This document shows positions 53,696 to 63,712 of a stretch of 64,000 nucleotides of DNA, piece by piece. The position numbers were made by a program, and so were the translations under genes. Position 1 is the stretch's first letter. Every line of letters begins with the position of its first letter. The DNA is from Methanothrix sp. (GTDB lineage: Archaea; Halobacteriota; Methanosarcinia; Methanotrichales; Methanotrichaceae): assembly GCA_017994055.1 (NCBI GenBank), contig JAGOLL010000001.1, positions 1 through 64,000 of the forward strand, written 5' to 3'. The notes under the pieces are model-generated. The model ran no database searches. It saw only the letters and a list, made by a program, of their open reading frames with translations, and was not told the DNA's origin.

Positions 53696-54763
53696 ATGTA
53701 CAGCGGCCCCTGCAGATGGACGAGACTCTTGGGGAGGCTTCGCCTATCCCGGATTTTTATCGATAAGAGGGCCTTTCTTGCCGCTTTCGCTCTTCTGATG
53801 CCCCTGCCTGCTTTCTTGATCTCAATGAACATAGGGACCTACCCCCTATCCGGTCCTGAGCTGGCGGAGATCATCTTCTCCAGGCTCATGGGTCACAGCC
53901 ATAGCCTCCCCCCGGTCTATGATATAGTTGTATTCAGCATCCGTCTGCCTCGAATCCTGCTGGCCATGCTGGCAGGAGCCGCTTTATCCATATCGGGGGC
54001 GACCTTGCAGGGCATTTTCAGAAATCCCCTGGTCAGCCCCTTCATACTGGGGCTGTCCTCCGGTGCCGCCTTCGGCGCTGCTCTGGCCATGTCTGTATTT
54101 CCCTGGATGCCCCTTCAGATAGGAGCCTTCTCTTTCAGCCTGCTGGCAGTGGGCTCTTCCTATCTCATGGCCAGGCACAAAGGAGAGGTGCCGGTAATAT
54201 CTCTGGTTTTGGCTGGAGTAGTGGTATCATCGGTATTTGGGGCTTTGCTTGCCATCATTCAGATTGCTGTAGATGCCCGCTCCTTGCAGAGCATCGTCTA
54301 CTGGAATATGGGCACGCTGTCCACCGCCTCCTGGTCCAAGGTAGATCTGGCTGCACCGTGGGTCCTGATTGGCGGCTTGATCATCATTGCTCTGCGCTGG
54401 AGGCTGAATGTCCTGGCTATAGGAGAGGAGGAAGCCAGATCGGTGGGAATGAACCTGGAGAGGTACAAGGTCGTCTTCATCGTCACAGCCACCCTGGTGG
54501 CTTCTGCCGTGGTTGCTGTAGCTGGAATAATCGGCCTGGTGGGCCTGATCGTCCCCCACATGGTACGCATGGTCTTCGGGCCGGATCACCGGACTCTGAT
54601 TCCCCTCTCCCTCACCCTGGGGGCCTCCTTTCTGGTGCTGGTGGATGATGTGGCCCGAGCTGCCTTCAGCTTCGAGGTTCCGGTGGGAATCATCACCACC
54701 CTCCTTGGCGCTCCGGTCTTCATCTATCTTCTCAGAACAACCCGGGCCGGAGGTTGGGAATGA
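53696..54763 (+). CDS. ABC importer permease, FecCD/BtuC family
   Basis: 355 aa, about ten membrane helices, with family blocks RLPRILLAMLAGAALSISGA, GNPLVSP-like RNPLVSPFILGLSSGAAFGA, VGLIVPHMVRMVFGPDHR (coupling helix) and PVGIITTLLGAPVFIYLL. It forms a homodimer with the adjacent ATPase. The ATPase gene starts inside its stop codon. Confidence 0.9.
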   Translation: MYSGPCRWTRLLGRLRLSRIFIDKRAFLAAFALLMPLPAFLISMNIGTYPLSGPELAEIIFSRLMGHSHSLPPVYDIVVFSIRLPRILLAMLAGAALSISGATLQGIFRNPLVSPFILGLSSGAAFGAALAMSVFPWMPLQIGAFSFSLLAVGSSYLMARHKGEVPVISLVLAGVVVSSVFGALLAIIQIAVDARSLQSIVYWNMGTLSTASWSKVDLAAPWVLIGGLIIIALRWRLNVLAIGEEEARSVGMNLERYKVVFIVTATLVASAVVAVAGIIGLVGLIVPHMVRMVFGPDHRTLIPLSLTLGASFLVLVDDVARAAFSFEVPVGIITTLLGAPVFIYLLRTTRAGGWE

Positions 54764-55554
54764 TAGCCGGAGATGGCATAAGAATTGAAGATATAAGCAT
54801 GGCTTATGCCCGCAGCAAGGTTCTGGATAAAGTCTCTCTGACCATTGGCAAAGGATCGGTGGTTACAATAGTAGGACCAAATGGCTGCGGCAAGACCACG
54901 CTTCTCAAGATCATCAATAACCTGATCCAGCCGGATCATGGCAGGGTATTGGTGGACGGCTGCCCCGTCGGATCCCTGCCGGCCCACCGTCTGGCCAGAT
55001 TAATGGGCTACGTGCCGCAGGGCCATAAAATATCCTTTCCCTTCAAGGTTCGAGACGTGGTGATAACGGGACGGATGCCCTATATTCCTGCTTTCTCTTC
55101 TCCTAATAGAGAGGATCGAGAGATGACCGAGCAGGTCCTGGCTCTAACCGGAATAAGCGGCCTTGCCGATCTACCCTACACCCAGATCAGCGGCGGGGAG
55201 AGACAGCTGGTGATGATTGCCAGGGCCATGGTCCAGCAGCCTTCAGTGCTGCTACTGGATGAGCCCACCTCTTATCTCGACTTCAAGAACCAGATCTCAA
55301 CCCTGAAGATGATCAAAGAGATATCAAAGAGGCAAAAGGTGACCGTAATGATGACCCTGCATGATCCTAATCATGCCCTGATGTTCTCGGACGATGTAGC
55401 TCTCTTGAGGAAGCTCAACTGCGGCAGAGAGGGAAACCTCGTCGCCTTTGGGCCACCGGAGAAGGTTATGACCCCAAAAAATATCCTGGAGGCCTATGGG
55501 GTTGAGGTGGAAATAATGGAGATGAAGGGGCGAAAGATATTGATGCCCCTCTGA
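54760..55554 (+). CDS. ABC importer ATPase, FecE/BtuD type
   Basis: 264 aa. Walker A GPNGCGKTT, Q-loop (YVPQGHK), signature SGGERQL, Walker B VLLLDEPTSYLD, and switch His in TLHDPNHA. The ATG overlaps the permease stop (ATGA) with GGAGG 6 nt before it. Completes the importer with the two preceding genes. Confidence 0.92.
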   Translation: MIAGDGIRIEDISMAYARSKVLDKVSLTIGKGSVVTIVGPNGCGKTTLLKIINNLIQPDHGRVLVDGCPVGSLPAHRLARLMGYVPQGHKISFPFKVRDVVITGRMPYIPAFSSPNREDREMTEQVLALTGISGLADLPYTQISGGERQLVMIARAMVQQPSVLLLDEPTSYLDFKNQISTLKMIKEISKRQKVTVMMTLHDPNHALMFSDDVALLRKLNCGREGNLVAFGPPEKVMTPKNILEAYGVEVEIMEMKGRKILMPL

Positions 55555-57046: not shown

Positions 57047-57469
57047 TCAGAGCTCTTTTCCAATAGAAGTGGTGGTCAATTTCACATGCTTTGCGCCCTT
57101 TAAGGCCATCATTCTTTCCGCCGCCTTTCTCACCTCTTCGCCCTCGCCTCTGAGCACAACAACCTCCAGGCAGGAATCATGGTCCAAATGGACATGCAAA
57201 CTGGACTTTATGATGCTGCCGAAGTCATGTTGAATCTCGGTGAGACTGTCCTGCAGGCCTCTCTGAGCATGATTGTATAATATGGTGATGACCCCAACCC
57301 GCTCTCCATTCACATCGCTCATCCATTCAAAATTGATTATATAATTTCTTATGGCATCCCTGATCCCCTCAGAGCGGGAGGAATACCCGCGCTGCTGAAT
57401 GATTTCGTCGAATTTATTGAGCAGATTTTCCGGTAAAGAGATGCCTATTCTAGTCAGATCTTGTTCCAT
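57047..57469 (-). CDS. nikR: nickel-responsive transcriptional regulator NikR
   Basis: 140 aa. N-terminal ribbon-helix-helix DNA-binding domain ([32 protein letters not shown]) and C-terminal ACT-like nickel domain. The four high-affinity nickel ligands are intact with canonical spacing: H81, H92, H94, C100 ([16 protein letters not shown]). Divergent from a nickel/peptide-type ABC operon across 260 bp that contain two palindromes, so it very probably controls that operon and perhaps itself. Confidence 0.93.
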
Positions 57470-57492: not shown

Positions 57493-57507
57493 TATTACTT
57501 AGTAATA
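57493..57507. promoter_or_regulatory. palindrome near nikR start, candidate NikR operator
   Basis: TATTACT-T-AGTAATA, a perfect 7-1-7 palindrome 24 bp upstream of the nikR start codon. Ribbon-helix-helix tetramers such as NikR bind dyads; the location suits autoregulation. Confidence 0.45.
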
Positions 57508-57690
57508 AGCTTGTCGATTTGAAATCAGAATGGCGGTTTTAAGAACGATCAGCTCAGCGAACTATGATAGTTGGATCTTTAAAATGTACCTTAGAAGCCA
57601 TACAGATGATAAGAGATAGTTATATGGAGTGCTATTTGGTTAACTATTTTAGATCTAATAATATTAAATCAAACTAAGCACAAATTTCTT

Positions 57691-57710
57691 ATAATAATTA
57701 GTTTTATTAT
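57691..57710. promoter_or_regulatory. inverted repeat before the nickel operon, candidate NikR operator
   Basis: ATAATAA-N6-TTATTAT, 20 bp before the first gene of the ABC operon and about 25-30 bp after an AT-rich TATA-like string (TATTAAAT, near 57661). It would overlap the transcription start, a position for repression. Arms differ from the palindrome near nikR, although both share a central TTAGT. Confidence 0.45.
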
Positions 57711-57729
57711 TGCATCAAAGGTGGGAAAT

Positions 57730-59316
57730 ATGATACGCTATTTATATAGGGTAGCCTTTGCGCTGATCCTTGGTGTCTTGATGCTGAGCTTGGCCGGCAT
57801 GGCCGCTGAGCAATCAGGGGAGACGGTTCTAAAGATCGGAACACCAAATGTGGTCAAGTCGGCAAGCATGCTGGGAGACAGCAGCATGGGGGTCTTTGCC
57901 CATCTGTCCAATCCTACATTGATGAAGATGGCAGCAGATGGAACTCTGGAGGGACTTGCCGCCCAGAGCTATGAGGTCTCTGAGGATGGCAAGACCTGGA
58001 AGTTCTCCATCAAAGACGACCTATACTGGAGCGATGGAAAGAAGCTCACTGCGGAGGATGTCCAGTTCACATTCGACTACCTGGCAGAGAACTATCCTGC
58101 CGCGGGCTGGATGAAGAGCACTGTGGAGGACATCACCATCCGGGAGGACAATGCCGTCGTCTTCAATCTCAATAAGCCCTACTCCCGTCTGAACCTGGAG
58201 TTCGCCACCTATCCCATACTGGCCAAGCATATCTGGGAGGCGATAAAAGAGCCCATGCAATATACCAATGAAGGGGAGATGGTCGGATTTGGTCCCTTTT
58301 ATATCGCCAAGACCGATCTGGGCTCAGGAGTGATCTACTTCCAGAAGAATCCTTATTGGAAAGGAGAGGCTCCCAACTTTGATTCCATTGAGATTCATAC
58401 CTTTTCCAATATGGATGTCCTCTCTCTGGCTTTGGAGAAGGGAGAGGTCGATGCCTACTATAAGTATGCAGGCACATATCCATATCCAAGCATCGAAAAG
58501 CTAAAAGATACCGGCAACTTCGAGTTTGTAGAAAAAGACAATATCGGACTGATCTTCCTGGGAATGAACCTGAAGAGAGAGCCCATGTCGGATATCAACT
58601 TCAGAAGGGCCCTATCCTTTGCCCTAGACTACAGCGAGATGCTCAAGCTCGATGCTCTGGGATACGGCCAGATCCCCAATGCCGGATTTGTGCCACCCAG
58701 CATGATGGGCTTCAAGGAGACGGACAGGCTCGAGCATAACCTCTCCCGGGCTAAAGCCATCCTGGAGGAGGCAGGCTATTCCGACTCCGATGGAAACGGC
58801 TTCCTGGAGGGCAAGGACGGAAAGGAGATCAATCTGATAGTTCTCACCAGAACCGACTACCAGCGGATTACAGAGCTTTTGGTTGACTATCTGAAATCCC
58901 TGGGAATCCGGAGCGAGATAAAGAGCGTGGACTCCAGCACCTGGATAAAACAAAAGGATGACGGGGAATACGATCTGACCATAACCAGAAGCACACCCTG
59001 GGGTATGCTAATGCATGCCAATTGGGGTACAGGCTATTTCGACTCGCGAAGGACCGGCGAAGGGGTATTGCATGTCCTTGAAGATCAGGAATTCCACAAG
59101 CTCTGCGACGACATTCTTGCCGCAACCAGCGAGGCGCAGCTCCCGGATTATGCCCATGAGTTGCAGGACTACTATGCGGAAAACCTGCCTGGAATTGCGC
59201 TCTACTGGAATAAGGTTGAGACACCCTACAACAAGGCACTCGAAGGCTGGTACTCCGATCCGCTCTACGGCATATTCAATGTGGACAATTTTCTCTCGGT
59301 GGAGAGGAAATTATGA
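57730..59316 (+). CDS. nickel/peptide-type ABC substrate-binding protein
   Basis: 528 aa, family 5 extracellular solute-binding protein (NikA/OppA fold). Signal peptide (FALILGVLMLSLAGMAA) without a lipobox cysteine. Family blocks: LAAQSYEVSEDGKTWKFSIK, YWSDGKKLTAEDVQFTFDY, NFRRALSFALDYSEM. Nickel is inferred from the divergent nikR gene rather than from binding residues. ATG 57730 follows GGTGGG; GTG 57721 is also open. First gene of a six-gene operon. Confidence 0.85.
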   Translation: MIRYLYRVAFALILGVLMLSLAGMAAEQSGETVLKIGTPNVVKSASMLGDSSMGVFAHLSNPTLMKMAADGTLEGLAAQSYEVSEDGKTWKFSIKDDLYWSDGKKLTAEDVQFTFDYLAENYPAAGWMKSTVEDITIREDNAVVFNLNKPYSRLNLEFATYPILAKHIWEAIKEPMQYTNEGEMVGFGPFYIAKTDLGSGVIYFQKNPYWKGEAPNFDSIEIHTFSNMDVLSLALEKGEVDAYYKYAGTYPYPSIEKLKDTGNFEFVEKDNIGLIFLGMNLKREPMSDINFRRALSFALDYSEMLKLDALGYGQIPNAGFVPPSMMGFKETDRLEHNLSRAKAILEEAGYSDSDGNGFLEGKDGKEINLIVLTRTDYQRITELLVDYLKSLGIRSEIKSVDSSTWIKQKDDGEYDLTITRSTPWGMLMHANWGTGYFDSRRTGEGVLHVLEDQEFHKLCDDILAATSEAQLPDYAHELQDYYAENLPGIALYWNKVETPYNKALEGWYSDPLYGIFNVDNFLSVERKL

Positions 59317-60116
59317 GCATCTGGAGGGATCAATGGAGGGATTTCATAAGAGAAGGCAGCTATGTGCAGCATCTCAGGGATGAGAAGATCTCCAACGACC
59401 AGTTCTGGAGAAGCTATGCCGTCTATGATCGGGCTTTAATGCATTCCGGATATCCGGGGGAGATCCTGAGCAAGATCTCCTCTTTTATCTCTCCGGGATC
59501 AATCCTTCTGGACATCGGAGCTGGAACAGGAGCCTTTGCCATTCCTCTCTCCCGGCAGACCTCCCGTACAATTGCCATTGACCCTTCTGCATATCAATTA
59601 AAGATCCTGATGCAGAAAGCCAGAGAGATGGGACTGAAAAATATCATCACAATTGAGAAGGAATGGAAGGATGTGCAGGGCAGCGATATCTTCGAATCCA
59701 GCCGCAAGCCTTTGAGGGGCCATGACATCGACTATTCTCTGGCGGCTAACAGCCTCTTCGATGAAGATATCCAAGGCTTCCTGGAAAAGATGATCGAAGT
59801 AACTCGAAAGGGAATCTTTATCGTCTTTCGAGCCGATCAGCCGGACTCATTAAATGAATTCGCATATGGTCCCAGGCCCTATGCCGACTACCTCTGCCTC
59901 TATCACATCCTGAAAGAGATTGGTCACCAGTTTGATATTATTTTATTTTCTAGAAATTATATCTTGCCATTGGATATAATTTTAATGCAACACCGGTTCT
60001 CCAGGAAGAGCCCCGAAGAGATTATAGATCATCTTGAGATGGAGGGGCGGCTGGGAGAAGGTGGAAAATGGGCCTCATTCTCCACAAGAGACGCACTTAT
60101 CTATAAGATCTTGTAG
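59313..60116 (+). CDS. SAM-dependent methyltransferase within nickel ABC operon
   Basis: 267 aa class I methyltransferase: motif I LLDIGAGTGAFAIPLSRQ near residues 68-85, the acidic end of strand 2 in TIAIDPSAYQLKIL, and a motif IV-like DYSLAANSLFDE. About 65 residues precede the fold (DQWRDFIREGSYVQHL). The ATG overlaps the stop of the binding-protein gene (GGAGAGG ribosome site), so it is translated with the importer. Substrate unknown. A link to a nickel-chelating small molecule or to cofactor handling is an inference from position only. Confidence 0.8.
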   Translation: MSIWRDQWRDFIREGSYVQHLRDEKISNDQFWRSYAVYDRALMHSGYPGEILSKISSFISPGSILLDIGAGTGAFAIPLSRQTSRTIAIDPSAYQLKILMQKAREMGLKNIITIEKEWKDVQGSDIFESSRKPLRGHDIDYSLAANSLFDEDIQGFLEKMIEVTRKGIFIVFRADQPDSLNEFAYGPRPYADYLCLYHILKEIGHQFDIILFSRNYILPLDIILMQHRFSRKSPEEIIDHLEMEGRLGEGGKWASFSTRDALIYKIL

Positions 60117-60130
60117 AGGAGGTTGAGAGT

Positions 60131-61075
60131 ATATCCCTTTCCGGAAAAAAGGCTCTCAGGTATATCGTTGCATTATTTCTCATCTTCTCCCTGAACTTTG
60201 CCATTCCCAGAAGTATGCCCGGAGATCCTCTTACCAATCTCCTGGGAGAGGATGTCATACTGACAGACAGCTATGTTCAGGAGCTGAGAGCGAAGATGGA
60301 GCTGGACAAATCTTGGCCAGAGCAATACCTGGAATACTGGATGGACATCTTGAGACTGGATCTGGGATATTCCTTCCATCTGCATAGGTTTGTATCGGAT
60401 ATCATATTCGAGCGCATGAAATGGACGCTATTATTGGCCGTACCGGCTCTTATCCTGGGAGCTATATTGGGCGCGCTCACGGGCGCCCGGGCGGGCTGGA
60501 AGAGCGGCAGGCATATTCTGAAGATGGAGCGCGCCTTTTTTCTGGCCATTTACTGCACTCCGCCCTACTTTCTCTCTTTGATAGTCCTCTATCTGCTATC
60601 CTTCAAAGCGGGGCTATTTCCCCTCAAGGGATTCTATTCCACTGGATCGGCAGTGGACATCGCCCATCATCTGTTTCTGCCCATGACCATGATGACGCTC
60701 TTCTCCCTCTCCAGGAACTATATGATCATGAGAGGAAGCGTGCTGCAGGAGAAGAGCAGCCTTTATGCCGCCTTCGCCCGGGCCAAAGGATTGTACGATG
60801 AGGAGATCTTATTTCGGCATGTCTTTAAAAATGCCCTTCTGCCCATTATCACCCTCCTGGCCTTGGACTTCGGCTTTATACTGAGCGGAGCGCTCTTCAT
60901 TGAGATCGTCTTTTCCATGAACGGCATGGGCAGCCTCATTTATGATGCCCTTCTCTCCAGGGATTATCCCATCTTGCAGGGATCGTTTCTGATAATAACC
61001 ATAATGGTCATCTCTGCCAATATGCTGGCCGATCTTCTATACAGCTGTCTGGATCCGAGGGTAAGGTGGCAGTAA
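60131..61075 (+). CDS. nikB: nickel/peptide-type ABC permease NikB-like, apparent ATA start
   Basis: 314 aa if read from the ATA at 60131, the usual NikB/DppB length. That start lies 8 nt after GGAGG and supplies the first membrane helix (LRYIVALFLIFSLNFAI) followed by the family motif SMPGDPL. The first standard start in frame is the ATG at 60215, inside that motif, which would delete the helix. Later: six helices in all, with the ATPase-contact loop AFARAKGLYDEEILFRHVFK. The downstream permease gene overlaps its end by 10 bp. Confidence 0.82.
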   Translation: MSLSGKKALRYIVALFLIFSLNFAIPRSMPGDPLTNLLGEDVILTDSYVQELRAKMELDKSWPEQYLEYWMDILRLDLGYSFHLHRFVSDIIFERMKWTLLLAVPALILGAILGALTGARAGWKSGRHILKMERAFFLAIYCTPPYFLSLIVLYLLSFKAGLFPLKGFYSTGSAVDIAHHLFLPMTMMTLFSLSRNYMIMRGSVLQEKSSLYAAFARAKGLYDEEILFRHVFKNALLPIITLLALDFGFILSGALFIEIVFSMNGMGSLIYDALLSRDYPILQGSFLIITIMVISANMLADLLYSCLDPRVRWQ

Positions 61076-62016
61076 AATTGTCCGAAATCAACCTAGGTCT
61101 GGATACGGATGCCATTCCCACAGTCATTCACGAGGCCGTTGAAAGCAGATGCGAAAATGGTGGAGAAGACAGTACCACTCTTGACAGACTCACCAAAAGA
61201 GCATTTTGGGGGGCCAAAGCGAGTGGACTGGGATTGGCTTTATTTTCATCCTTCTTGGCCATGGCCGCTCTGTCCCACCTCCTGGCCCCCTACGATCCCT
61301 GGATCAGATTCGAGCCCTATCTTTTGCCCGGCGAGGAGCATCTTCTGGGAACAAACGACCTGGGCCAGGACATACTATCCGAGCTGATCTACGGCACCAG
61401 GGTCTCTCTTATAGTGGGCTTCGGAGCAGCGCTGATGGCCACGATCATAGGAACGGCGGTCGGCCTTTTCTCCGGCTACTTAAAGGGCACAGTTGATGAG
61501 ATCCTCATGGGGCTCACGGATATTTTTCTAATGATACCGCAGATTCCCTTAATCATCGTTTTAGCTGCGTTCTTGAGGCCCAGCTTCTGGCTGGTGGCAT
61601 TGCTCATGGGCAGCCTGTGGTGGACCTCTACTGCCAGGGTGGTGCGCTCTAAAGCATTGCAGGTCAGTGAGATGGGATATGTGAGAGCCAAGAGAGCACT
61701 GGGCTTTTCCAGCCTGCACATAATGCTCTCCGATGTGCTGCCCAATATATGCCATGTGGTGATGCCCAAGTTTCTGCTCTCGATTGCCTCCGCTATGATA
61801 GCTGAGGCCTCCATATCCTTCCTCGGCCTGGGAGATCCTGCCAGCAAGAGCTGGGGGATGATGATCAACTTCGCCTTTAGCCGGGGTGGTTTCATAAACG
61901 GTTACTGGTGGTGGTACCTGGCACCCGGACTGTGCATCACGCTCTTTGTGATGTCAGTGGTTCTGATGGGCCATTTTCTGGAAGAAAAGGAGATGTCGAT
62001 ATTGAGGTTGGAATGA
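61066..62016 (+). CDS. nikC: nickel/peptide-type ABC permease NikC-like
   Basis: 316 aa. Cytoplasmic N-terminus of about 55 residues, then six helices with the family blocks HLLGTNDLGQDILSELIYGT, FLMIPQIPLIIVLAAFL and YVRAKRALGFSSLHIMLSDV (ATPase-contact loop). GTG start after GAGGGT, overlapping nikB by 10 bp. Forms the heterodimeric pore with NikB. Confidence 0.87.
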   Translation: MAVKLSEINLGLDTDAIPTVIHEAVESRCENGGEDSTTLDRLTKRAFWGAKASGLGLALFSSFLAMAALSHLLAPYDPWIRFEPYLLPGEEHLLGTNDLGQDILSELIYGTRVSLIVGFGAALMATIIGTAVGLFSGYLKGTVDEILMGLTDIFLMIPQIPLIIVLAAFLRPSFWLVALLMGSLWWTSTARVVRSKALQVSEMGYVRAKRALGFSSLHIMLSDVLPNICHVVMPKFLLSIASAMIAEASISFLGLGDPASKSWGMMINFAFSRGGFINGYWWWYLAPGLCITLFVMSVVLMGHFLEEKEMSILRLE

Positions 62017-62990
62017 GCCGCCTGGGTGCAACTCCAATTGATGAGCCCCTCCTGAGGATCGAGGGGCTCTCTGTGACCTTTGATACCTCAATGGGGCGGG
62101 TCAGAGCAGCACAGGATGTCTGCCTGGATCTTTTTAAAGGAGAGGCCCTGGCCCTTGTGGGTGAGACGGGCTGCGGCAAGTCGGTTGTTGCCAACTCCAT
62201 ATTACAGCTTCTTCCAGGCAATGCCTCGGTGCGAGGAAGTGTCACCTTCTCCGGAAGAGATCTCCTCTCTTTGAGCGAGAGAGAGATGGCGGAGATAAGG
62301 GGCAGAGAGATTGCCATAGTATTTCAAAATCCCTCCTTGGCCTTAAATCAGATTATAAAGGCAGAAGAGCAGATAGCAGAGCCTCTTCAGATTCACAGGC
62401 ACCTGCCGCGAAGCCTATCGATCCAGATGGCCAAGGATATGCTTCGCCGCTTGGGACTTGGTATGGGGGGTGTGGCGGAGAGTTACCCATTTCAGCTCTC
62501 CGGAGGCATGAATCAGAGGGTGATGATAGCAGCAGCTATGATCCTCTCTCCCAGGATCATAATAGCTGATGAGCCGAGCAAAGGGTTGGACCGATTGCTG
62601 GCAAGGCAGATAGCTGAAGAGCTGGGTGGGCTCAGGGACAAAATGGGTGCCTCACTCCTTCTCATCACCCATGATCTCTTGCTGGCAAGAGATATCTCGG
62701 ACAGGATATCGGTGATGTACTGCGGCGAGGTTGTGGAGACGGGAGAGAGCCAGGCGGTCTTTGACCATCCCCTTCATCCCTACACAAAAGCACTCTTGGA
62801 CTGTCTTCCTCAAAGAGGCTTTCATCCCATACCCGGCGTTTCGCCGTCTATGATCGATCCGCCTGGAGGCTGCAAGTTTTATCCCCGCTGCCGCTACAAA
62901 CATGATAAATGCATGCAGAAGCCGGATATGACTAGGAAAAGGTGCCGCCATGGGGGGATGGATAGGGAGGTGAGATGCTGGCTATATTGA
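62013..62990 (+). CDS. nikD: nickel/peptide-type ABC ATPase NikD-like
   Basis: 325 aa. Walker A GETGCGKSV, signature LSGGMNQRV, Walker B IIIADEPSKGLD and switch His in LLITHDLLLA. The C-terminal oligopeptide-transporter extension with CKFYPRCRYKHDKC is present (four-cysteine-type motif found in iron-sulfur-containing members). The signature is LSGGMNQRV and Walker B ends EPSKGLD rather than EPTTALD. ATG overlaps the nikC stop (ATGA). Confidence 0.88.
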   Translation: MSRLGATPIDEPLLRIEGLSVTFDTSMGRVRAAQDVCLDLFKGEALALVGETGCGKSVVANSILQLLPGNASVRGSVTFSGRDLLSLSEREMAEIRGREIAIVFQNPSLALNQIIKAEEQIAEPLQIHRHLPRSLSIQMAKDMLRRLGLGMGGVAESYPFQLSGGMNQRVMIAAAMILSPRIIIADEPSKGLDRLLARQIAEELGGLRDKMGASLLLITHDLLLARDISDRISVMYCGEVVETGESQAVFDHPLHPYTKALLDCLPQRGFHPIPGVSPSMIDPPGGCKFYPRCRYKHDKCMQKPDMTRKRCRHGGMDREVRCWLY

Positions 62991-63712
62991 AGGCCAAAAG
63001 TCTCGGCATGAATTATGGATCCGGACTGATAATCAAAAAGCGGCATAGTATATTTCAAGACATCTCCCTGGAGATTGAAGAAGGCCGCACACTGGGCTTG
63101 ATGGGGCCCTCAGGCGTGGGCAAGACAACGCTGGGAATGATCCTGGCCGGCCTGGAGAGGCCTTCTTCAGGATGCGTTCTCTATCGTGGGGAGGATATCT
63201 GGAAGCTAAAGGGCATTGACTATCTGGCTTATAGGAGAGGAGTGCAGATGGTCTTTCAGGATTCGGAGGGATCTTTTAATCCCAGGAAGAGCATTGAGCA
63301 ATCGATTCATGAGGTTTTGCGCCATATGAATATCCCCCGGATAGAGTGGAAGGATAAAGCCCGCCAGGCCCTGGAAATGGTCGGCCTTCCCGAGGAGCTG
63401 CTCTGTCGCTATCCAAGGCAGATCTCGGGAGGCCAGAGCCAGAGGGCCGCCCTGAGCCGGGTATTGCTCTTGAATCCAAAGGTGATCATACTTGATGAGC
63501 CAACCTCTGCCCTGGACATATCAGTCCAGGCTCAGATCCTCGGCCTGCTCAAGGATCTGCAGAAAAATCTGGGACTGGCCTACCTTCTCATATCCCATCA
63601 GCCAGAGGTGATAGATTTCATGGCTCACAATAAAGCCATTCTGGAATCAGGAGAGATCCGCCACGAGATTATCTTGCCGCGATATGATAGTGCAAGGCCC
63701 GATCCCCTATGA
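62975..63712 (+). CDS. nikE: nickel/peptide-type ABC ATPase NikE-like
   Basis: 245 aa, short for the class: it lacks the C-terminal extension seen in NikD. Walker A GPSGVGKTT, signature ISGGQSQRA, Walker B VIILDEPTSALD, switch His in LLISHQPEV. The ATG follows a near-perfect ribosome site (GGAGGTGAG) and overlaps nikD by 16 bp. Last gene of the operon. Confidence 0.88.
   Translation: MLAILKAKSLGMNYGSGLIIKKRHSIFQDISLEIEEGRTLGLMGPSGVGKTTLGMILAGLERPSSGCVLYRGEDIWKLKGIDYLAYRRGVQMVFQDSEGSFNPRKSIEQSIHEVLRHMNIPRIEWKDKARQALEMVGLPEELLCRYPRQISGGQSQRAALSRVLLLNPKVIILDEPTSALDISVQAQILGLLKDLQKNLGLAYLLISHQPEVIDFMAHNKAILESGEIRHEIILPRYDSARPDPL

Follow-up and report, generated by a model that had tools for sequence, protein, structure and literature searches.

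A methyltransferase gene built into a NikR-linked, nickel-type importer operon of Methanothrix, and its possible role in metal-chelate uptake

Why should a methyltransferase be encoded between the binding protein and the first permease of a nickel-type ATP-binding cassette (ABC) importer? The question is raised by a 64,000 nt stretch of the Methanothrix sp. contig JAGOLL010000001.1 (hereafter the window; the host assembly is 2.38 Mb), in which all seven genes (7/7) were found in the order nikA-MT-nikB-nikC-nikD-nikE, divergent from nikR on the minus strand; MT denotes the class I S-adenosylmethionine (SAM)-dependent methyltransferase. The explanation that we favour, with a probability of roughly 0.45, is that NikR controls this operon, that it imports a nickel chelate, and that the enzyme inserted in it methylates the small-molecule ligand. 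The parts of this explanation differ in strength. MT is very probably coupled to metal-chelate import and the metal of the window operon is probably nickel, whereas the chances that the methyl acceptor is a small-molecule ligand are about even, and action of MT after import rather than in biosynthesis is proposed tentatively, with the odds against it.

Profile matches for all of the genes bear out the initial annotation in placing a methyltransferase between the binding protein and the first permease. The nikA-like gene (57730..59316, plus strand; SBP_bac_5, 1e-71) encodes a substrate-binding protein of family 5 (SBP5) with a signal peptide, and alignment with relatives puts its start at a conserved ATG at 57730 instead of the GTG at 57721 originally chosen. 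MT follows at 59313..60116 on the plus strand. Overlapping start and stop codons had been described on both sides of MT, and this holds on one side only: the nikA stop and the MT start share the ATGA at 59313-59316, but MT and nikB are separated by a gap of ~14 nt.

The position of MT is conserved well beyond the window. A close orthologue (51-67% identity, and the window itself) is present in 13 genomes of the Methanotrichaceae, and MT occupies exactly the nikA/nikB slot in 12 genomes, genera g5 and g11 included; the arrangement is therefore not confined to one species, a finding that would have refuted the proposal of the initial annotation had it been otherwise. More distant relatives of MT (20-38% identity) adjoin other NikABCDE sets and Peripla_BP_2-FecCD-ABC importers, i.e. 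NikR-MT-NikABCDE in Methanosarcinaceae (L069), MT-NikABCDE in Dehalococcoidia (L073), NikABCD-MT in NaphS2 (L074), an MT-family gene beside NikABCDE in Desulfobacteraceae (L124), and FecCD-type importers in Methanolobus and many Methanomicrobiales. Besides the Methanotrichaceae, hosts of this wider family are thus found among other methanogens, the Dehalococcoidia and the deltaproteobacteria. An importer gene was scored as near when it had the same orientation and lay no more than four open reading frames (ORFs) away, using 20 regions picked from the match list blind to context. Importer genes lay near 15 of 21 MT-family members but near only 12 of 365 background ORFs (~3%), and on named contigs (contig scan with one generic motif, sampled among the matches listed) near 21/47 family members compared with 1/26 non-family genes (Fisher p=1.6e-4), kinship being ignored in both counts. 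Mapped onto a 107-member tree, the Nik label requires 12 changes, at least 8 of them forced by well supported branches, and the Nik association has therefore been gained or lost repeatedly. The best explanation of this pattern is that the MT family serves several metal-chelate importers, of both the Nik (SBP5) and the Fec/Btu (FecCD) types, in anaerobes.

The same counts decide the fate of a hitch-hiking explanation, in which MT would be a chance insertion in one peptide-importer lineage, unrelated to nickel. Such an insertion would fit with the scores of NikA to NikE, all below their NCBIfam cut-offs, and with the loss of MT from two relatives. However, the association recurs independently, MT is under purifying selection, and one genome (G004, discussed below) has kept MT next to nikR. 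On the recurrence tests (importer counts and tree changes) a chance or lineage-specific insertion is rejected as largely refuted, leaving hitch-hiking very improbable. A gene adjoining FecCD was considered as a DUF364 member, and in the one case tested it encodes an SPFH/Band 7 protein. An SPFH/Band 7 protein lies between MT and FecCD in Methanothrix Fec-type operons (L054, and probably L067 and others).

A second, unrelated METHYLTRANSFERASE occupies the nikA/nikB slot elsewhere, namely TrmO_N (PF01980), a beta-barrel SAM methyltransferase fold that is not related to that of MT. It is found in a second Methanotrichaceae nik operon with the order NikA-TrmO_N-NikB-NikC-NikDE, often with NikR next to it (loci L163, L177, L204, L205, L221, L249-L261, L273, L274 and L276), and the window's own genome has such an operon as well (G000:C4, L273). 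The TrmO-fold methyltransferase may do the job of MT in this sister operon. A CooC-like ATPase is encoded between NikA and TrmO in genus g5 and in G022, and CooC-like genes adjoin MT in FecCD operons too; in the homologue measured, from L081, almost the entire protein aligns with CooC (3kje), a CO dehydrogenase accessory protein, at 4e-18. Loci at which such CooC-like nickel-insertion ATPases adjoin either NikA/TrmO or MT with a FecCD importer are L252, L255, L257-L259, L262, L277, L071, L081, L088, L099-L101, L109 and L117. A flavin-reductase-like protein (PF01613) adjoins NikA or lies between CooC and TrmO at L208 and L038, and probably at L277; it could serve reductive metal release.

The TrmO-type gene also brings in a regulatory or RNA role, in which MT and the TrmO-like protein would modify RNA or protein and so tune nickel-dependent expression. 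The TrmO of E. coli methylates tRNA. For archaeal YaeB, another RNA or protein has been suggested as the target (PMC4132733), which would suit such a role, but the C-terminal domain suggested to bind tRNA is missing from archaeal TrmO-type proteins (PMC4132733). In addition, the fold of MT and its N-terminal Trp-rich cap look like those of small-molecule enzymes, and a role in RNA modification leaves the link to two importer types unexplained; we consider it improbable. Coupling of MT to metal-chelate import is supported because the slot is conserved, the association has arisen independently, MT has been retained with NikR where nikABCDE is gone, and a second, unrelated methyltransferase occupies the paralogous slot. 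The same logic points to a possible function for the archaeal TrmO-type proteins, for which a tRNA product was not found (PMC4132733).

What does the importer carry? The gene nikR (57047..57469, minus strand) encodes a nickel-responsive ribbon-helix-helix (RHH) repressor with matches to NikR_C (9.9e-33), RHH_1 and NCBIfam NF002169 (219.6 bits against a cut-off of 111), i.e. a bona fide NikR beside the operon, so that the NikR linkage of the initial annotation is upheld. The palindrome TATTACTTAGTAATA at 57493..57507 (no strand assigned), in the nikR/nikA intergenic region, is a candidate NikR operator. Within the 2.38 Mb assembly, TATTACTNAGTAATA has an exact match only at 57493-57507, and exact copies are also found in the nikR/nikA intergenic regions of G016 and G002 and in the nikR/MT region of G004, making four nikR intergenic regions in all with that of the window. 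A further exact copy precedes a PBP2-FecCD operon in G020, and copies with one mismatch precede CbiMNQO in G013, nikR paralogues, and a PBP2-FecCD operon just 3' of nikE in the window's genome (L297). Energy-coupling factor (ECF) importers of the NikMNQO/CbiMNQO kind carry out NikR-regulated nickel uptake in methanogens (PMC10617489), and CbiM and CbiQ genes follow directly after nikE in G024 (L035). These are another transporter class, alongside which no methyltransferase has been reported in the open-access literature searched; NikR-governed nickel uptake is what they would share with the window operon, and they lie near MT in G004 as well. The adjoining NikR, the nearby CbiM-type nickel/cobalt importers, CooC and the shared candidate operator together argue for nickel.

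The subunits themselves are less specific. Like E. coli NikABCDE-NikR, the operon combines an SBP5 binding protein, two BPD permeases and two oligopeptide-type ATPases with an adjoining NikR; unlike it, the window has a methyltransferase gene between nikA and nikB. The description as a nickel-type ABC operon stands for the five-subunit SBP5/Opp-type set, and not at the level of individual subunits, all of which fall below the NCBIfam equivalogue cut-offs (bits scored/required: NikA 140/393, NikB 167/447, NikC 153/358, NikD 199/319, NikE 232/333). Sequence and fold searches with NikA match chitin-, peptide- and nickel-binding proteins alike, the NikA model being of moderate quality (predicted local distance difference test, pLDDT, 75.9). 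NikA carries a conserved signature, TPWGMLMHANWGTGYFDSRR (TPWG-x-x-MHA-x-x-GTGYFDSRR), parts of which recur in the proteins from Dehalococcoidia and NaphS2.

Tetrapyrrole handling is a rival explanation, with the importers carrying corrinoid, F430 or other metal tetrapyrroles and MT methylating the macrocycle in salvage or modification. BtuC/FecC-like permeases accompany many MT relatives, CooC-like ATPases and a flavin reductase are encoded close by, and the best NCBIfam matches of MT, all weak, are CpaM, CbiT and UbiG. Some SBP5 proteins bind heme. The CpaM and CbiT scores are nevertheless far below their cut-offs (32 against 180 bits and 28 against 78 bits, respectively), so that MT belongs to no specific NCBIfam family, and the ties of the window operon are to NikR and, among relatives, to importers of the CbiM type, which transport free ions. 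Tetrapyrrole handling is therefore an unlikely account, though less so than RNA modification.

What MT is can be judged from its sequence and predicted structure. The protein of 267 aa matches Methyltransf_25 (1.3e-7), and an AlphaFold2 model built with 72 family members as input (pLDDT 94.9; predicted template modelling score, pTM, 0.91) has a Rossmann fold with an intact D-x-G-x-G motif. Foldseek matched the model to TTHA0223, YcgJ, TmtA, OxaG, HvrF and BioC, all generic small-molecule methyltransferases, and a PDB sequence search returned weak generic matches and nothing else. The D-x-G-x-G SAM motif, N110 and W118 are invariant across the family, and W8 and W32 are near-invariant. No Cys or His occupies an invariant or near-invariant column in the MT-family alignments A1 and A3, and MT itself is therefore unlikely to bind nickel.

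These results bear directly on the proposal, made in the initial annotation, that nickelophore synthesis by nicotianamine- or staphylopine-type enzymes is involved, i.e. that a methylated nickelophore, produced or completed by MT, is secreted and then re-imported by NikABCDE. In that case a nickel-regulated operon could be expected to encode a SAM enzyme, and NikA does resemble CntA (104 bits). The staphylopine system (cntKLM-cntABCDF) likewise combines an SBP5 metal-chelate importer with SAM-using chemistry at one locus, but the window has no CntL- or CntM-like genes and has an ordinary class I methyltransferase in another slot. In some methanogens nicotianamine-type synthase (NAS, PF03059) is a SAM-using enzyme tied to nickel chelation; it is missing both from the window's genome and from each of the 25 genomes of the genus that were searched, and profile searches gave no match of MT to PF03059 or to a staphylopine enzyme. 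A fold search for an aminopropyl-transferase- or NAS-like enzyme gave ordinary methyltransferases alone, and such an identity for MT was rejected. Moreover, there are no other biosynthesis or export genes in the nik-MT operon or in the orthologous operons examined. A nicotianamine- or staphylopine-type route is thus not supported, and chelator synthesis in general has a low probability, although it is the strongest of the rivals, and modification of an imported nickel chelate appears to fit the sequence data better.

Under the explanation that we favour, the SBP5-type NikABCDE-like importer would take up a complex of nickel with a small organic ligand, and MT, as a dedicated cytosolic SAM-dependent methyltransferase, would methylate the ligand once inside. 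Methylation would weaken coordination and so free Ni2+ for carbon monoxide dehydrogenase/acetyl-CoA synthase (CODH/ACS) and F430, and the methylated ligand would be kept from re-binding metal. We favour action after import because there is no other synthesis gene or exporter, NAS is absent, and the partner proteins (CooC and the flavin reductase) are cytosolic. A parallel is offered by proteins with DUF364 (PF04016), which are encoded in metal ABC operons and have been proposed to act on the metal ligand (PMC2954201), as they too are cytosolic enzymes with a Rossmann-like domain beside metal importers; they are another family without a SAM-binding motif, whereas that of MT is intact.

Several results weigh against the coupling of MT to nickel-chelate import. 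In two genomes MT has decayed and nikABC has been retained: in G019 NikA and NikB are kept and MT is a 199-nt remnant, and in G015 there are two stops within MT. MT is dispensable in these genomes, because it decayed while nikABC stayed, and paralogues are perhaps covering for it. The reverse case, G004, is a real problem for strict import coupling, as MT has survived the loss of nikABCDE. In this Methanothrix genome (two contigs, 99% complete) all that is left of nikA is a pair of short remnants (residues 38-52 and 512-529), nikBCDE is gone, and the closest other NikA is 28% identical. MT is nevertheless intact beside nikR, and its ratio of nonsynonymous to synonymous substitution rates (dN/dS) of ~0.12 relative to L032 indicates purifying selection. 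Genes for CbiM, CbiQ and an ATPase (CbiO), i.e. an ECF nickel/cobalt importer, lie ~3.6 kb 3' of it, past three DUF4198 genes. The sister NikA-TrmO importer of G004 (L276) could supply the same ligand; an MT without its own importer but with another nik operon present is also what a chelator synthesis gene would allow. In addition, many MT-family members adjoin Fec-type importers, for which the metal may or may not be nickel, and about one third have no importer gene nearby. Approximate matches to the palindrome are only mildly enriched (20 compared with 9 control sites in ten genomes), and it therefore counts as no more than a candidate operator. Finally, NikA does not have the E. coli nickel-site residues R97, R137, Y402 and H416, with only W100 and W398 aligning, and its cargo could therefore be another chelate.

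The importer subunits are of known kinds. For the nikA-MT-nikB order, its recurrence across importers and the second methyltransferase fold in the slot, no report was found in the open-access literature searched. The recurrence of MT with importers suggests that cells chemically modify a small molecule during nickel uptake; the tie between a conserved enzyme and nickel import implies a small-molecule nickel ligand that is novel for these organisms, and supplies specific genes to test. A more general form, which we offer as speculation that is more likely wrong than right, is that methylation-assisted metal uptake operates in anaerobic archaea and some bacteria, with two unrelated cytosolic SAM methyltransferase folds (class I and TrmO-type), in places together with a CooC-type ATPase and a flavin reductase, processing the ligand delivered by SBP5 or FecCD importers. 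If true, no earlier nickel uptake system with ligand processing would be known from archaea.

The rest of the operon can be described briefly. A probable archaeal TATA element of the nikA-MT operon, CACAAATTTCTTATAAT, lies at approximately 57684..57700 on the plus strand, as a TATA-like block ~45 bp 5' of the nikA ATG that is conserved in most of the 13 upstream regions aligned. Downstream of MT and on the same strand are two permease genes, nikB-like (60131..61075; BPD_transp_1, 3.3e-31) and nikC-like (61066..62016; BPD_transp_1, 1.9e-23), and two ATPase genes, nikD-like (62013..62990; ABC_tran 1.1e-23, oligo_HPY 9.7e-18) and nikE-like (62975..63712; ABC_tran 4e-31, and TIGR02769 (nikE) at 9.5e-69, below its cut-off). 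The nikB start was set by alignment with relatives: the codon is ATG in 10/10 of those compared and ATA at 60131 in the window assembly, which is a rare start codon or else results from an error in the assembly. The nikD start is most likely the ATG at 62013, in another ATGA overlap, here with the nikC stop.

Among the relatives, nikA is broken in G001 and the MT that comes after it is truncated. G019 and G022 each have ~24 NikA-like matches, i.e. expansions of SBP5 proteins, and together with L044, L048 and L060 these represent large expansions of SBP5 proteins and MT paralogues in single Methanothrix genomes. In G022 a radical SAM/SPASM protein (L049:3844-4875), possibly a peptide or chelator maturase, adjoins an MT-NikABCDE set. 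Two further importers flank the nik region in the window's genome. Just 5' of it, at window positions 53696-55554, are a FecCD permease and ATPase (BtuCD-like), with no MT-family gene seen beside them. Beyond the window, 3' of nikE, is a PBP2-FecCD-ABC importer (G000:C117:64378 and ~64.8-68.3 kb; L297), the permease of which is split over two frames in the window's assembly.

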